Part shown: positions 4,056 through 7,713 of the stretch, one piece after another
Position numbering within the stretch: position 1 is the stretch's first letter
Layout: every line of letters begins with the position of its first letter
NCBI GenBank assembly: GCA_021731215.1
Contig: JAKFXU010000260.1
Location: forward strand, 1 to 10,587
Source of the DNA: Rhodoferax sp.
Lineage (GTDB): Bacteria > Pseudomonadota > Gammaproteobacteria > Burkholderiales > Burkholderiaceae_C
Length of the DNA stretch: 10,587 bases
Direction: 5' to 3'
Made by a program: the position numbers and the translations under genes
Notes under the pieces: model-generated
What the model was told of the DNA's origin: nothing
Database searches by the model: none
What the model saw: only the letters and a program-made list of their open reading frames with translations

Positions 4056-6191
4056 ATGAATTCAGCCACACTCTCTAGCGCATCGGCTACCTTGTCAGGC
4101 CGAGAACTGGCGCTCAAGCGCCGCCAAGCCATGGCCCTCAATGGCAAAGCAGCCCTGTCCAGGTCTCAGGCCACTGCGGCAACGCCCTTGGCCTCAGCAG
4201 CCAATGCTCGGGCGTCGGCTGACGCAAAGCCAGAACCTCAGGCTTGGTTGACTACGCCGCTGCTCAATCGCAGTGCGGGCCGCTTGCGCCGGGAGGCACT
4301 TAGTCAGCACGGAAAAGCCGCCATGGCAGACCCCGCCCGGGCTCCAACTGGCCAAGGGCGGCCGTTGCGCCAGCCGATCACCGCACCTGCTGCACAGGAG
4401 CTCGGTCACGGGCAAGCTAGCGCCTTGAGCCCGGTCGCTGTCGGGCTGGAGCAGTCCAGCGCTCGGGCGTTTGCCCGTGCGCGCCGCGCCGCCATGGCAC
4501 AGGATGGCAAAGGCGCTCTCAAGCGTCTGGTGCCCGCCCAAACGGGGCGTCCTGCGACCAGCAGTGCCGACAGTTCGGGCGCAAGCCGCCGACCTGTGGG
4601 TCGTGTGCGGCCCCAAGTGAACCCAGTTGCGAGCGCCCCTGAGAAGGTTGAAGGAGGTCATGCGCTGCAGGGTCGAGCGCTGACTGCAAGCCGGGCCGAA
4701 CGCAGCCTGAAGGTGACCGGTAGCGAGCACGGGGCCGGCCGCGCAGTCACCGGCACTGAGTACATAGGTGCCGAACAAGTTGACAATCTGCGCGAGCGCC
4801 GGTCCAGTCCGGCACCGGCCAAGGTGGCCGTCAGTTCAACCCTGGGTGAGCAAAAAGTGACCGGGATCGAGGTCGGGCGCTCAGCCAACGTCACCGGTGA
4901 TGAGTTGGGTGCCTGCCGCGGCATCACGGGCACCGAATATTTGTCGGCCGAACGCTATGACGAGTTTTGCGTCTCGCGCCCCGACCCGGCACCGAAAAAA
5001 GTAGAACAGACCCACACGGCGGCGGGCAAGCTCGTCACCGGCACCCGATTCGGCCAAAGTGAAAACGTATCAGGCGGCGAGGCGGGCGCGTGCCGCGGCA
5101 TCACAGGCACTGAATATTTGTCCCAGGAGCAGTTCATCAGTACCTGCGCTACGCAGGCACCGGTTCGGCCGCTCAAGGTCAGTGTGATGTCCTCGCGCGG
5201 CCAGCAGACGGTGTCGGGCACGGAGGTCGGCCGCTCTGCCAACGTAACCGGGGACGAGCCCGGTTCACGCCAGCACATCACCGGCTCGCAGTATTACAGC
5301 GCCGAAGGTTTGGACGCCCAGCGGGCTGCCAGGGTAGCTGCCAAGGCGCCCACCCTGTGTGGCTGCGCAGGGCGAGGTCGGCCTGGTCCAGCGGATTGCG
5401 CACCCCCAAAGTCAATCGGTGACGGCGGCGCCGGGTGTTTGTCCGTCACCGGAAGTTATTTTGAACCCACGTCGAAAGTGACCGGAAACGATTTTGGCGG
5501 CTCCGCTCAAATCAGTGGTTCACAGTACGCAGGACCACGCTCGATGAGCCATTTGGGTGAACAGTCGAGCGTCATGGCTCAGTCCGAGCCGGTACGCCCG
5601 ACGGCCGTGATTTCAGCCGCGACGGTGACGGGGGATCGACCTGGCGCCGGTGCTGTCAGTGGTCGCTTTCTGCCGCGCCAGAGTTCGGTGGAGGCGACCG
5701 AGCCCAATCCGGCGCCTCTGGCGTTCAGTATTCAGTCACCGGCGCGGGTGGCGCATGATCAAACGCTCGATCAGGTGACCGGCAGTAGTTTTGGGATTGA
5801 CCGAATCACGGGGGCGGCCAACAAGGCCGGTGGTTTGATTACGGGTACGCCAGAGTTTCGTCACCAGGTGCCGCCGCGGCCCCTGGCAGCGCCGGCACCG
5901 TCGGCAACTCCCGCTGGCAAAGTGACCGGCGAAGGCAGTCAGGCCGGGCGCGCGGTGACCGGCGACGCATGGCATGCCACGCGCCGGGTAACCGGCACGG
6001 AAGGCGCCTCAAGTCTGATGCGCAACCCTTCTGCCAAAGGTACTCCTCGCGGCATGGGCGTGAATGCACAGGTATTTCGAACCATCGAGAAGCCTGCAAT
6101 ACCGGTCCAGCCGGAGAGTCGCATCACTGGTTCGGCTGGTAGTTCTGGCAAGGGCGCATCGGTGACCCTGTCCGGTGGCGCTCGGGGCTGA
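4056..6191 (+). CDS. csoS2: carboxysome scaffold protein CsoS2 (full form CsoS2B; short form by -1 frameshift)
   Basis: This 711-residue, mostly disordered, basic, Gly/Ala/Ser/Thr-rich protein links RuBisCO to the shell and is essential for alpha-carboxysome assembly. The N-terminal region has three helical RuBisCO-binding repeats ending GKAAL, GKAAM and GKGAL (about residues 15-34, 72-90 and 136-155); Halothiobacillus CsoS2 has four. The middle region (209-423) has four M-repeats of exact 59-residue period, each with three V/I-T-G modules 11 residues apart. The C-terminal region (462-711) has further triplets at 464/475/486, 574/584/595 and 623/634/645, and a conserved tail starting RITGS. 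It is shorter than the roughly 870 residues of the Halothiobacillus protein, with fewer repeats. The ATG at 4056 has AAGG 8 bases upstream. A -1 frameshift signal at 5405-5451 should also give a 455-residue CsoS2A lacking the C-terminal region. Confidence 0.96.
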   Translation: MNSATLSSASATLSGRELALKRRQAMALNGKAALSRSQATAATPLASAANARASADAKPEPQAWLTTPLLNRSAGRLRREALSQHGKAAMADPARAPTGQGRPLRQPITAPAAQELGHGQASALSPVAVGLEQSSARAFARARRAAMAQDGKGALKRLVPAQTGRPATSSADSSGASRRPVGRVRPQVNPVASAPEKVEGGHALQGRALTASRAERSLKVTGSEHGAGRAVTGTEYIGAEQVDNLRERRSSPAPAKVAVSSTLGEQKVTGIEVGRSANVTGDELGACRGITGTEYLSAERYDEFCVSRPDPAPKKVEQTHTAAGKLVTGTRFGQSENVSGGEAGACRGITGTEYLSQEQFISTCATQAPVRPLKVSVMSSRGQQTVSGTEVGRSANVTGDEPGSRQHITGSQYYSAEGLDAQRAARVAAKAPTLCGCAGRGRPGPADCAPPKSIGDGGAGCLSVTGSYFEPTSKVTGNDFGGSAQISGSQYAGPRSMSHLGEQSSVMAQSEPVRPTAVISAATVTGDRPGAGAVSGRFLPRQSSVEATEPNPAPLAFSIQSPARVAHDQTLDQVTGSSFGIDRITGAANKAGGLITGTPEFRHQVPPRPLAAPAPSATPAGKVTGEGSQAGRAVTGDAWHATRRVTGTEGASSLMRNPSAKGTPRGMGVNAQVFRTIEKPAIPVQPESRITGSAGSSGKGASVTLSGGARG
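4680..5324 (+). repeat. CsoS2 M-repeat array, 177-bp period in coding DNA
   Basis: The first hydrophobic residue of each unit falls at residues 209, 268, 327 and 386, an exact 59-residue (177-base) period. Within each unit the V/I-T-G modules are 11 residues apart (for example 268, 279 and 290). The first module of unit 1 has decayed to LTA. Cysteine pairs 18 residues apart occur in unit 2 (C287, C305) and unit 3 (C346, C364). The matching positions in unit 1 are G228 and R246, and in unit 4 R405 and R423. The DNA copies have diverged, so this is old duplication kept in register by selection. M-repeats are known to contact the shell. Confidence 0.85.
5405..5451 (+). promoter_or_regulatory. 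-1 programmed ribosomal frameshift signal in csoS2
   Basis: The heptamer C_CCA_AAG (5405-5411) fits X_XXY_YYZ and lies in the correct reading phase: codons CCC (P450), CCA (P451), AAG (K452). After 5 spacer bases, CGGTGACGG (5417-5425) pairs perfectly with CCGTCACCG (5443-5451) as a 9-bp, GC-rich stem with a 17-base loop. A slip to -1 reads AAA GTC AAT CGG TGA, ending at 5422, so the short product has 455 residues: N-repeats plus all M-repeats and no C-terminal region. Programmed frameshifting in csoS2 giving CsoS2A and CsoS2B is known from other alpha-carboxysome operons. The specific element here is read directly from sequence; its efficiency is unknown. Confidence 0.8.
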
Positions 6192-6202: not shown

Positions 6203-7713
6203 GTGGATACACGCAAACGACTCGCTGCCATGCGCACGGTGCGCCAGGAAAACCCGGCCGCGCCGGGCCCGGCCAACCCGGCGTGCGTCATCGGTCCGGG
6301 CCAGAGTTGCGAGCATGCGCTGGTAAATCAGGACATTAATCAGAGCCTGTACCAGTATGAAGTCGCGGTGTCGGGCCGATTCAATGTCATCGTCGAGACG
6401 CTCAGGCAGGTGTCGGCGCTGCAGCACGAATCCAACTTCACCCAGGCTGCCCAGGCCATCGCGATGGCCAAATTGGGCTATCAATTGCCAGCACGAATTC
6501 TGGATGAGGCTTGGGTGAGTGGTCTGGATCTGCGCTCCTTGTATTCGCACTGCGTGATCCGGTCTTTCAAAATAACGGTGGACCAAGCGGCGCACGATCA
6601 GCAAGCCCTGCGCGAGCGCACGCCGCTGAACCAGCGCTTCTTTCTTTCCTGTGGCTACCACACCATCGATGTCAGCCCGTGCGCTGACGGGCGGCTGCAG
6701 GGCGCATTGCCCTTCGTTTTTCGCTTCGCGCCTAACGATTCTGTTTGGGTCAAGGCTTATGCTGGCGCACTGTTTGACGTCGAGTCCGATATAGGCGACT
6801 GGTCACAGCGCGAGCTCGACCGGCTCAGCGGGGCTATACCCGGCGGCGAGCAAGCCAACTACCTGAGGTGGCTGTGTATCACTTCAGCTCGTCCAAGCCG
6901 GCACAGCAGGGTTGTGCGGCGCACGGCAGTTGTGACAGCGTGGCGACGCAATCAGCGCTGGAGCGACTGGTGGAACTGCAGTCGGCCATCGAGAACCGCT
7001 TTGGTCGGGGTGCCGCGCCCGATGTGCTGTTGATCGGTGTGGATACCGACACCGATGCCATTCGCGTACACCTGCCCGATGAACTCGGTCACATGAGTCC
7101 GTACCGTTATGCCGACAGCGCCGTGCTGTACCGGGACACTTTGGGCATGGCGACACCGGCGGCGCGCGCGGCGGTTGACGCCGCGGTCTCCAGCGTGGAG
7201 CGGGCCGACGGCTGGGGTCAGGGCGTGGGTGTCATGCAGCCGGGGATGCGCCAGTTGGTGATGGCCTTGCTGGAGGCCAATTTGTCCCAGATCGAATACG
7301 TCATACAGCACCATGACGGGCGCTATGCCGACATCGGCCACAACGAGCGGTTCATTTGTGTCGGCGAGTCCTTGAGCGAGGTGCAGTTTCGCAATATGTT
7401 TTATTTTGCACACCTGAGCACCGTGGAAGATGGCGCCGCCGATGTCGATATTGGGGTGAAGATTTTCACCGGTTTGAATGTTGCCCGGGGCTTGCCCATG
7501 CCGGTGCTGGTTCATTTTCATTATTCGTCCAAGTTGCCGGGCTCACGCGTGCGGGCGCTGGCCCGCTGCCGGCGCGTCAAAAACGCCATCGAGGCGCGTT
7601 ACCAATCCTTGCAGCAACGCGGTTTTCTGCACTGCTGCACGGCCGTGTCCGACACGGAAGGCTCGGAACGTTGCACCTTGCTTGAAGATCAAGCCATCGA
7701 ACCCGCTCATTGA
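6203..7713 (+). pseudogene. csoSCA: carboxysomal carbonic anhydrase CsoSCA, frame broken near 6866
   Basis: CsoSCA (CsoS3, an epsilon or divergent beta-type zinc carbonic anhydrase) makes CO2 from bicarbonate inside the carboxysome. One frame runs from GTG 6203 through GEQANYLR (residue 222, codon 6866-6868); homology then continues in the -1 frame with VAVYHFSSSKPAQQGC from 6868. Joined, the protein would be 503 residues, close to the roughly 514 of Halothiobacillus. Zn ligand C160 and dyad D162/R164 (CADGR) lie before the break. Ligands H227 and C238, 11 apart like H242/C253 of Halothiobacillus, lie after it. Without correction the first frame ends at 7033 after an Arg/Trp-rich nonsense tail. 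The sequence CTGAGGTGG suggests one G lost from an AGGG run. GTG 6203 is preferred because MDTR resembles family N-termini and TGAGGG lies upstream. Either a sequencing error or a true loss of function. Confidence 0.88.

Follow-up and report, generated by a model that had tools for sequence, protein, structure and literature searches.

Our analysis of the csoS2 gene on a 10,587-nt stretch of DNA from Rhodoferax sp. (the whole stretch is called the window here) indicates that a short cassette within the gene is very probably a programmed −1 ribosomal frameshift element, which would make a short protein, CsoS2A, beside the full-length CsoS2B. The cassette is homologous to the published csoS2 signal, and frameshifting is already known in related bacteria; slippage in the window's own organism is what we infer here. 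An earlier note on this DNA had read the site as a −1 frameshift signal, and both the sequence evidence and the homologous published case of Halothiobacillus neapolitanus support that reading. Points against it are an ordinary folding energy, thin covariation, the lack of a needed residue in five of the seven nearest protein relatives, the lack of the heptamer in five of ten family genomes, a CUU tRNA-Lys in three congeners and a split csoSCA gene.

The gene lies in an alpha-carboxysome operon context, as a Pfam CsoS2_M gene with the Rubisco large subunit, CsoSCA and BMC as neighbours. The gene, its predicted products and the parts of the cassette are as follows (window positions):

4056–6191, + strand: csoS2, zero-frame product CsoS2B, 711 aa (open reading frame; Pfam CsoS2_M, 301.6 bits; PDB CsoS2B sequences match)
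4056–5422, + strand: predicted CsoS2A reading, 455 aa (452 zero-frame residues, V-N-R from the −1 frame and TGA; from sequence)
5343–5453, + strand: remnant of M-repeat 6 (residues 430–466), which houses the cassette (alignment; upstream half 5–6 of 21 identical to outgroups P0009, P0011 and P0033)
5405–5411, + strand: slippery heptamer C_CCA_AAG in zero-frame phase (C_CCA_AAR at the same place in 29 relatives)
5412–5416, + strand: 5-nt spacer (equal length in 28 hairpin-bearing relatives)
5417–5425, + strand: 5′ arm CGGTGACGG of the presumed stimulatory hairpin (alignment and pairing across relatives)
5420–5422, + strand: −1 frame stop TGA, within the 5′ arm (TGA here in 29 of 30 M6 sites, an early stop being a selection criterion)
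5426–5442, + strand: 17-nt loop, which opens with the self-complementary CGGCGCCG at 5426–5433 (folding)
5443–5451, + strand: 3′ arm CCGTCACCG of the hairpin (alignment and pairing across relatives)
5454–5537, + strand: rest of M-repeat 7 (residues 467–494), missing from CsoS2A (alignment)
5724–6188, + strand: C-terminal region (residues 557–711), missing from CsoS2A (PDB comparison, alignment)

The zero frame across the site reads GCA CCC CCA AAG TCA ATC GGT GAC, with CCA as residue 451 and AAG as residue 452, and the −1 frame reads AAA GTC AAT CGG TGA, i.e., V-N-R and then a stop, which makes three −1 residues. The stem is a perfect 9 bp formed by 5417–5425 and 5443–5451. Direct reading of the sequence confirmed what the earlier note had described, namely C_CCA_AAG in the right phase at 5405–5411, a 5-base spacer with a perfect 9-bp stem, and a −1 frame TGA at 5420–5422 that gives a 455-residue CsoS2A. 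Its placement of the site at the M/C boundary was imprecise, as the site lies inside a decayed M-repeat 6 and M-repeat 7 comes after it. The proposal that the self-complementary loop motif adds structure held in part: the motif is predicted to pair within the loop in the window sequence, but is not conserved in relatives.

In the proposed mechanism, the hairpin would pause ribosomes with CCA in the P site and AAG in the A site, and both tRNAs would re-pair one base back, from CCA to CCC and from AAG to AAA. Slipped ribosomes would then read GTC AAT CGG and terminate at the TGA inside the hairpin. The released CsoS2A of 455 aa would comprise the N-repeats and M1, M2, M4 and M5, and the 711-aa CsoS2B alone would bear M7 and the C-terminal region; in the window CsoS2, a linker and M7 stand between the frameshift site and the C-terminal region. 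The predicted masses are 46.8 kDa for the 455-aa and 72.3 kDa for the 711-aa product. Trypsin would leave VNR as the C-terminal peptide of CsoS2A, which is too small to be detected routinely. We discounted transcriptional slippage because the runs here, five C and three A, are short.

Next to csoS2, the csoSCA gene (carboxysomal carbonic anhydrase; window 6203–7713) occupies two overlapping frames with a net one-base change near 6868; in L002, L004 and L005, the relatives used for comparison, the gene is one uninterrupted frame. No slippery heptamer was seen by eye at this frame change. Either the change is genuine and inactivates the gene, which could point to a decaying operon, or the assembly contains a mistake here.

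A programmed −1 ribosomal frameshift in csoS2 of H. neapolitanus was reportedly described by Chaijarasphong et al. in 2016 (J Mol Biol 428:153). In the available text of PMC5009743, CsoS2A of this species has 570 residues, three of them from the −1 frame, and frameshifting reaches ∼50% with a 3′ stem-loop; the same text gives 79 of 162 species having csoS2 as predicted to frameshift, and in it csoS2 appears without a 5′ Shine-Dalgarno stimulator. Excerpts of three other articles put the frameshift site in the sixth M-repeat (PMC11481516; PMC12918739; PMC11365436), and the first of them associates CsoS2A with larger, more heterogeneous shells (PMC11481516). The H. neapolitanus CsoS2B of PDB entry 9ly8 (869 residues) reads ...DHAPKMSGDERGGCMPVTG, with P566-K567 at the homologous point. 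Since a CsoS2A of 570 aa with three −1 residues places the slip at P566-K567, P451-K452 of the window coincides with the published slip point. Compared via the protein and published figures, the two cases share the gene, the P-K of M6, three −1 residues, a 3′ hairpin and a short CsoS2A beside a long CsoS2B, and they differ in that M6 of the window is decayed and its predicted short form has 455 instead of 570 aa.

Outside csoS2, the dnaX signal of E. coli consists of an X_XXY_YYZ heptamer ending in A_AAG and a 3′ structure. The same two elements make up the −1 signals of IS911/IS3, and these genes, like dnaX, are unrelated to csoS2. According to PMC4066793, C_CC.A_AA.G topped a set of 64 heptamers compared for frameshifting in E. 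coli and reached 54% when combined with the IS3 pseudoknot. The same paper expects a CUU tRNA-Lys to make A_AAG motifs in IS elements less usable, though not to preclude their use. The window's genome (85% complete) has a confirmed tRNA-Lys(UUU) gene (L146), and no CUU match was found in it. Three congeners match both tRNA-Lys types, and ARAGORN confirms both in G121, G284 and G214, although it does not call one of the two CUU matches of G214 (L147) as a tRNA. That the last heptamer base (AAG or AAA) tracks tRNA-Lys(CUU) is unsupported, as the AAG users G457 and G578 match the CUU-type pattern; these two matches come from the pattern alone, which is incomplete, with no match in 5 of 26 genomes (G379, G1045, G952, G842 and G963).

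To place the cassette among its relatives we used the PF12288 profile, which matched in 12 of 299 genomes of the family draw (11 above the cut-off), 44 of 399 of the order draw and 72 of 369 of the class draw, the window's genome being counted in each; within the genus, csoS2 was found in 1 of the 89 genomes searched, namely the window's own. After addition of four further named loci from contig searches, the set held 129 non-redundant best frames, window included and some of them partial. Two records of a plasmid collection with a distant csoS2 stand outside this set. In 35 of the 129 frames, an in-phase C_CCA_AAR is followed within six codons by a −1 stop, and in 30 of those 35 (window included) it sits at the same P-K of M-repeat 6, a site absent from the other 99 frames. 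The remaining five (L074, L088, L111, L115 and L122) lie outside M6 without a matching hairpin and were dropped; seven more in-phase C_CCA_AAR sites with a late −1 stop were left out as well. In the family draw, the M6 site is found in 5 of the 10 other genomes above the cut-off, and the heptamer is missing in the other 5.

Conservation of the heptamer and stem had been named in the earlier note as a check, and among the 29 heptamer-bearing relatives, 28 align with the window without gaps from the heptamer through the 5-nt spacer and the TGA to the hairpin, in which 6 or more of the 8 core pairs form; these 28 had been chosen by heptamer and early stop. Their hairpin is of the type CGGTGACG ... 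CGTCACCG. Among the seven nearest protein relatives the same check came out mixed, with two compatible with an intact cassette and five not. The remaining heptamer-bearing relative, L055 (1420–1468, − strand), still has the heptamer, but its hairpin is degraded, with 3 of 8 core pairs, and its −1 stop comes a codon later. These two differences kept it out of the covariance model; the alignment, covariation and codon-choice counts include it. One csoS2 with a full cassette, L003, is on a contig filed as a Nitriliruptoraceae (Actinomycetota) MAG and groups with proteobacterial genes; this contig is probably mis-binned.

The covariance model, built from the 28 relatives without the window and L055, finds the window's cassette at 5405–5453 with 39.2 bits (E = 5e-8), the next-best place in the window scoring 11.9 bits. 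Over 100 sources (the window and 99 loci outside the model) it gives 112 matches at E ≤ 1, other repeats among them. No Rfam family matched at its gathering score; two matches at E ≤ 1 in 5000–6000 were both far below their gathering scores.

The other repeats of the same genes served as an internal control, with 412 repeat sites of the same motif and spacing against the 30 M6 sites. All 8 core pairs are formed in 22 of the 30 M6 sites vs 0 of 412, and at least 7 in 28 of 30 vs 14 of 412; as the rows are related, neither these counts nor those that follow are independent. The Gly codon is GGT in 29 of 30 M6 sites vs 89 of 412 elsewhere; this count in part, and those of heptamer and early stop, carry ascertainment because heptamer and early stop were the criteria for choosing the 30. 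The 3′ arm with its Val and Thr codons played no part in that choice, and here the Val codon is GTC in all 28 Val codons at M6 vs 91 of 246 elsewhere. The slippery sequence is likewise restricted, with no C_CCA among 61 other P-K dipeptides of the same genes (one not scorable). These numbers bear on an explanation in which the hairpin is a by-product of coding, made by the complementary G-D (GGTGAC) and V-T-G (GTCACCGG) of the M-repeats, with a coincidental heptamer. In its favour, other repeats are among the weak matches of the model, and the window repeat at residue 277 forms 7 of 8 pairs and also has a −1 TGA; but the full set of pairs, the codon choice and C_CCA set M6 apart from all these repeats. 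The repeat-site comparison largely refutes such a by-product, to which we give hardly any credence.

Across the aligned rows, 88.8% of the cells are paired, as against 50.9% for the best slid structure, and the covariation score exceeds that of all 500 shuffles. Double changes occur in 3 of 11 stem pairs, a number that 39 of 500 shuffles reach, and pair 21–39 is unformed in 18 of 26 rows; since most core pairs hardly vary, covariation is weak evidence here.

Chance was assessed by permuting synonymous codons within csoS2, with the amino acids and the codon pool fixed. Anywhere in the gene, 31 of 20,000 shuffles produced an in-phase X_XXY_YYZ heptamer with a stem of at least 9 bp (starting 4–9 nt further on) and a −1 stop no more than 6 codons away; with the stop condition dropped, 171 of 20,000 did. 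At the exact site, the heptamer, 8 of 8 core pairs and TGA came together in 29 of 200,000 shuffles. With the cassette also conserved in relatives, the earlier judgement that chance is unlikely is borne out. Folding energy is unremarkable for base composition in 5412–5471 (z −0.79; 41 of 200 shuffles equally stable) and likewise not exceptional in 5405–5460 (z −1.71; 11 of 200), so that the case rests on position and conservation and not on stability.

Four genes have the hairpin and the −1 TGA without C_CCA_AAR:

L060 1027–1075, − strand: C_CCT_CAG (model match)
L131 1758–1806, − strand: C_CCT_CAG (model match)
L132 1819–1867, − strand: C_CCT_CAG (model match)
L092 1924–1972, − strand: C_CCC_AAG (model match)

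All four outscore the window in the model (51.7 to 54.9 bits). The first three belong to one family, and CCT makes up 12 of 181 Pro codons in them. Such genes could mean that the hairpin acts otherwise, as a pause for co-translational assembly or in mRNA processing or stability, and that frameshifting is incidental. Yet they retain a C_CC.Y tetramer and the same −1 stop, and according to PMC4066793 tetramers of this class are shifty in E. coli, where they supply the A-site codon. Moreover, heptamer and hairpin occur together in 28 relatives, though these were chosen by the heptamer. We consider a role of the hairpin apart from frameshifting very improbable. The tetramer would sit 8 nt upstream of the hairpin, and these four genes may represent a csoS2 frameshift that relies on a tetramer. 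Among the matches lacking the heptamer, weaker ones at ∼30 to 38 bits include L129 (38.4), L089 (37.8), L082, L090, L085 and others; L129 has no −1 TGA at the corresponding place.

We built a tree of 56 CsoS2 proteins by a quick method, with SH-aLRT support and midpoint rooting. In it, the window and P0002–P0008 make up one clade (support 100, branch 0.68) within a mostly cassette-bearing group; this clade's neighbours are six cassette genes, of which five come from the same family (support 88). Horizontal transfer is suggested by L006 and L049, csoS2 genes from different families (two in all) that come out as sisters in this tree (support 100). In the window's clade M6 is hardly recognisable in its front half, which in the window is identical to P0009, P0011 and P0033 at 5–6 of 21 positions and to P0002 at 13 of 21, and M2, M4 and M5 retain 31–41 of 49–50 identical positions in the same comparison. 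M7 has diverged too (11–16 of 28 identical to outgroups), and in the window a gap fuses the last part of M6 with the first part of M7.

Within the clade, P0002 and P0003 group with the window (support 95) and, at the protein level, keep P-K, G-D and V-T at exact spacing; the cassette is possibly retained in both. All five members of the sister subclade, P0004–P0008, miss at least one cassette requirement, again as judged from protein: P0004 has no stop-compatible residue after Gly, P0005 and P0008 lack the Pro, P0006 lacks the segment, and P0004, P0005, P0007 and P0008 have no V-T for the 3′ arm. These proteins could use another slip site. On a plain reading, the cassette was inherited from a frameshifting ancestor, retained in one subclade and decayed in the other.

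From this pattern we propose, at a little less than even chances, that the cassette has outlived its protein repeat: M6 would have lost its shell-binding motifs, and selection acting on the RNA would maintain heptamer, spacing, stop and hairpin in one subclade while its sister is losing them. The decayed M6, the losses in all five sister proteins and the split csoSCA would also fit a relict cassette, which would have come from a frameshifting ancestor and would now see little or no use, the more so as a passage of PMC11365436 calls CsoS2A non-essential in H. neapolitanus. On the other hand, the heptamer is intact and all 8 core pairs form despite the large protein divergence and the long branch, P0002 and P0003 also retain each needed residue, and the rarity of the combination under synonymous shuffling (29 of 200,000) speaks against such a remnant, which we regard as unlikely.

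A functional −1 frameshift element in the window's csoS2 would add a further lineage to the known csoS2 frameshifters, one in which the RNA signal and its host protein repeat have come apart. The analysis also supplies an alignment and a covariance model for an element whose site no Rfam family matched at gathering score. Comparing lineages with and without the cassette could help to settle the role of CsoS2A, and if the cassette has indeed outlived its repeat, the two subclades would be a natural experiment on whether CsoS2A matters.
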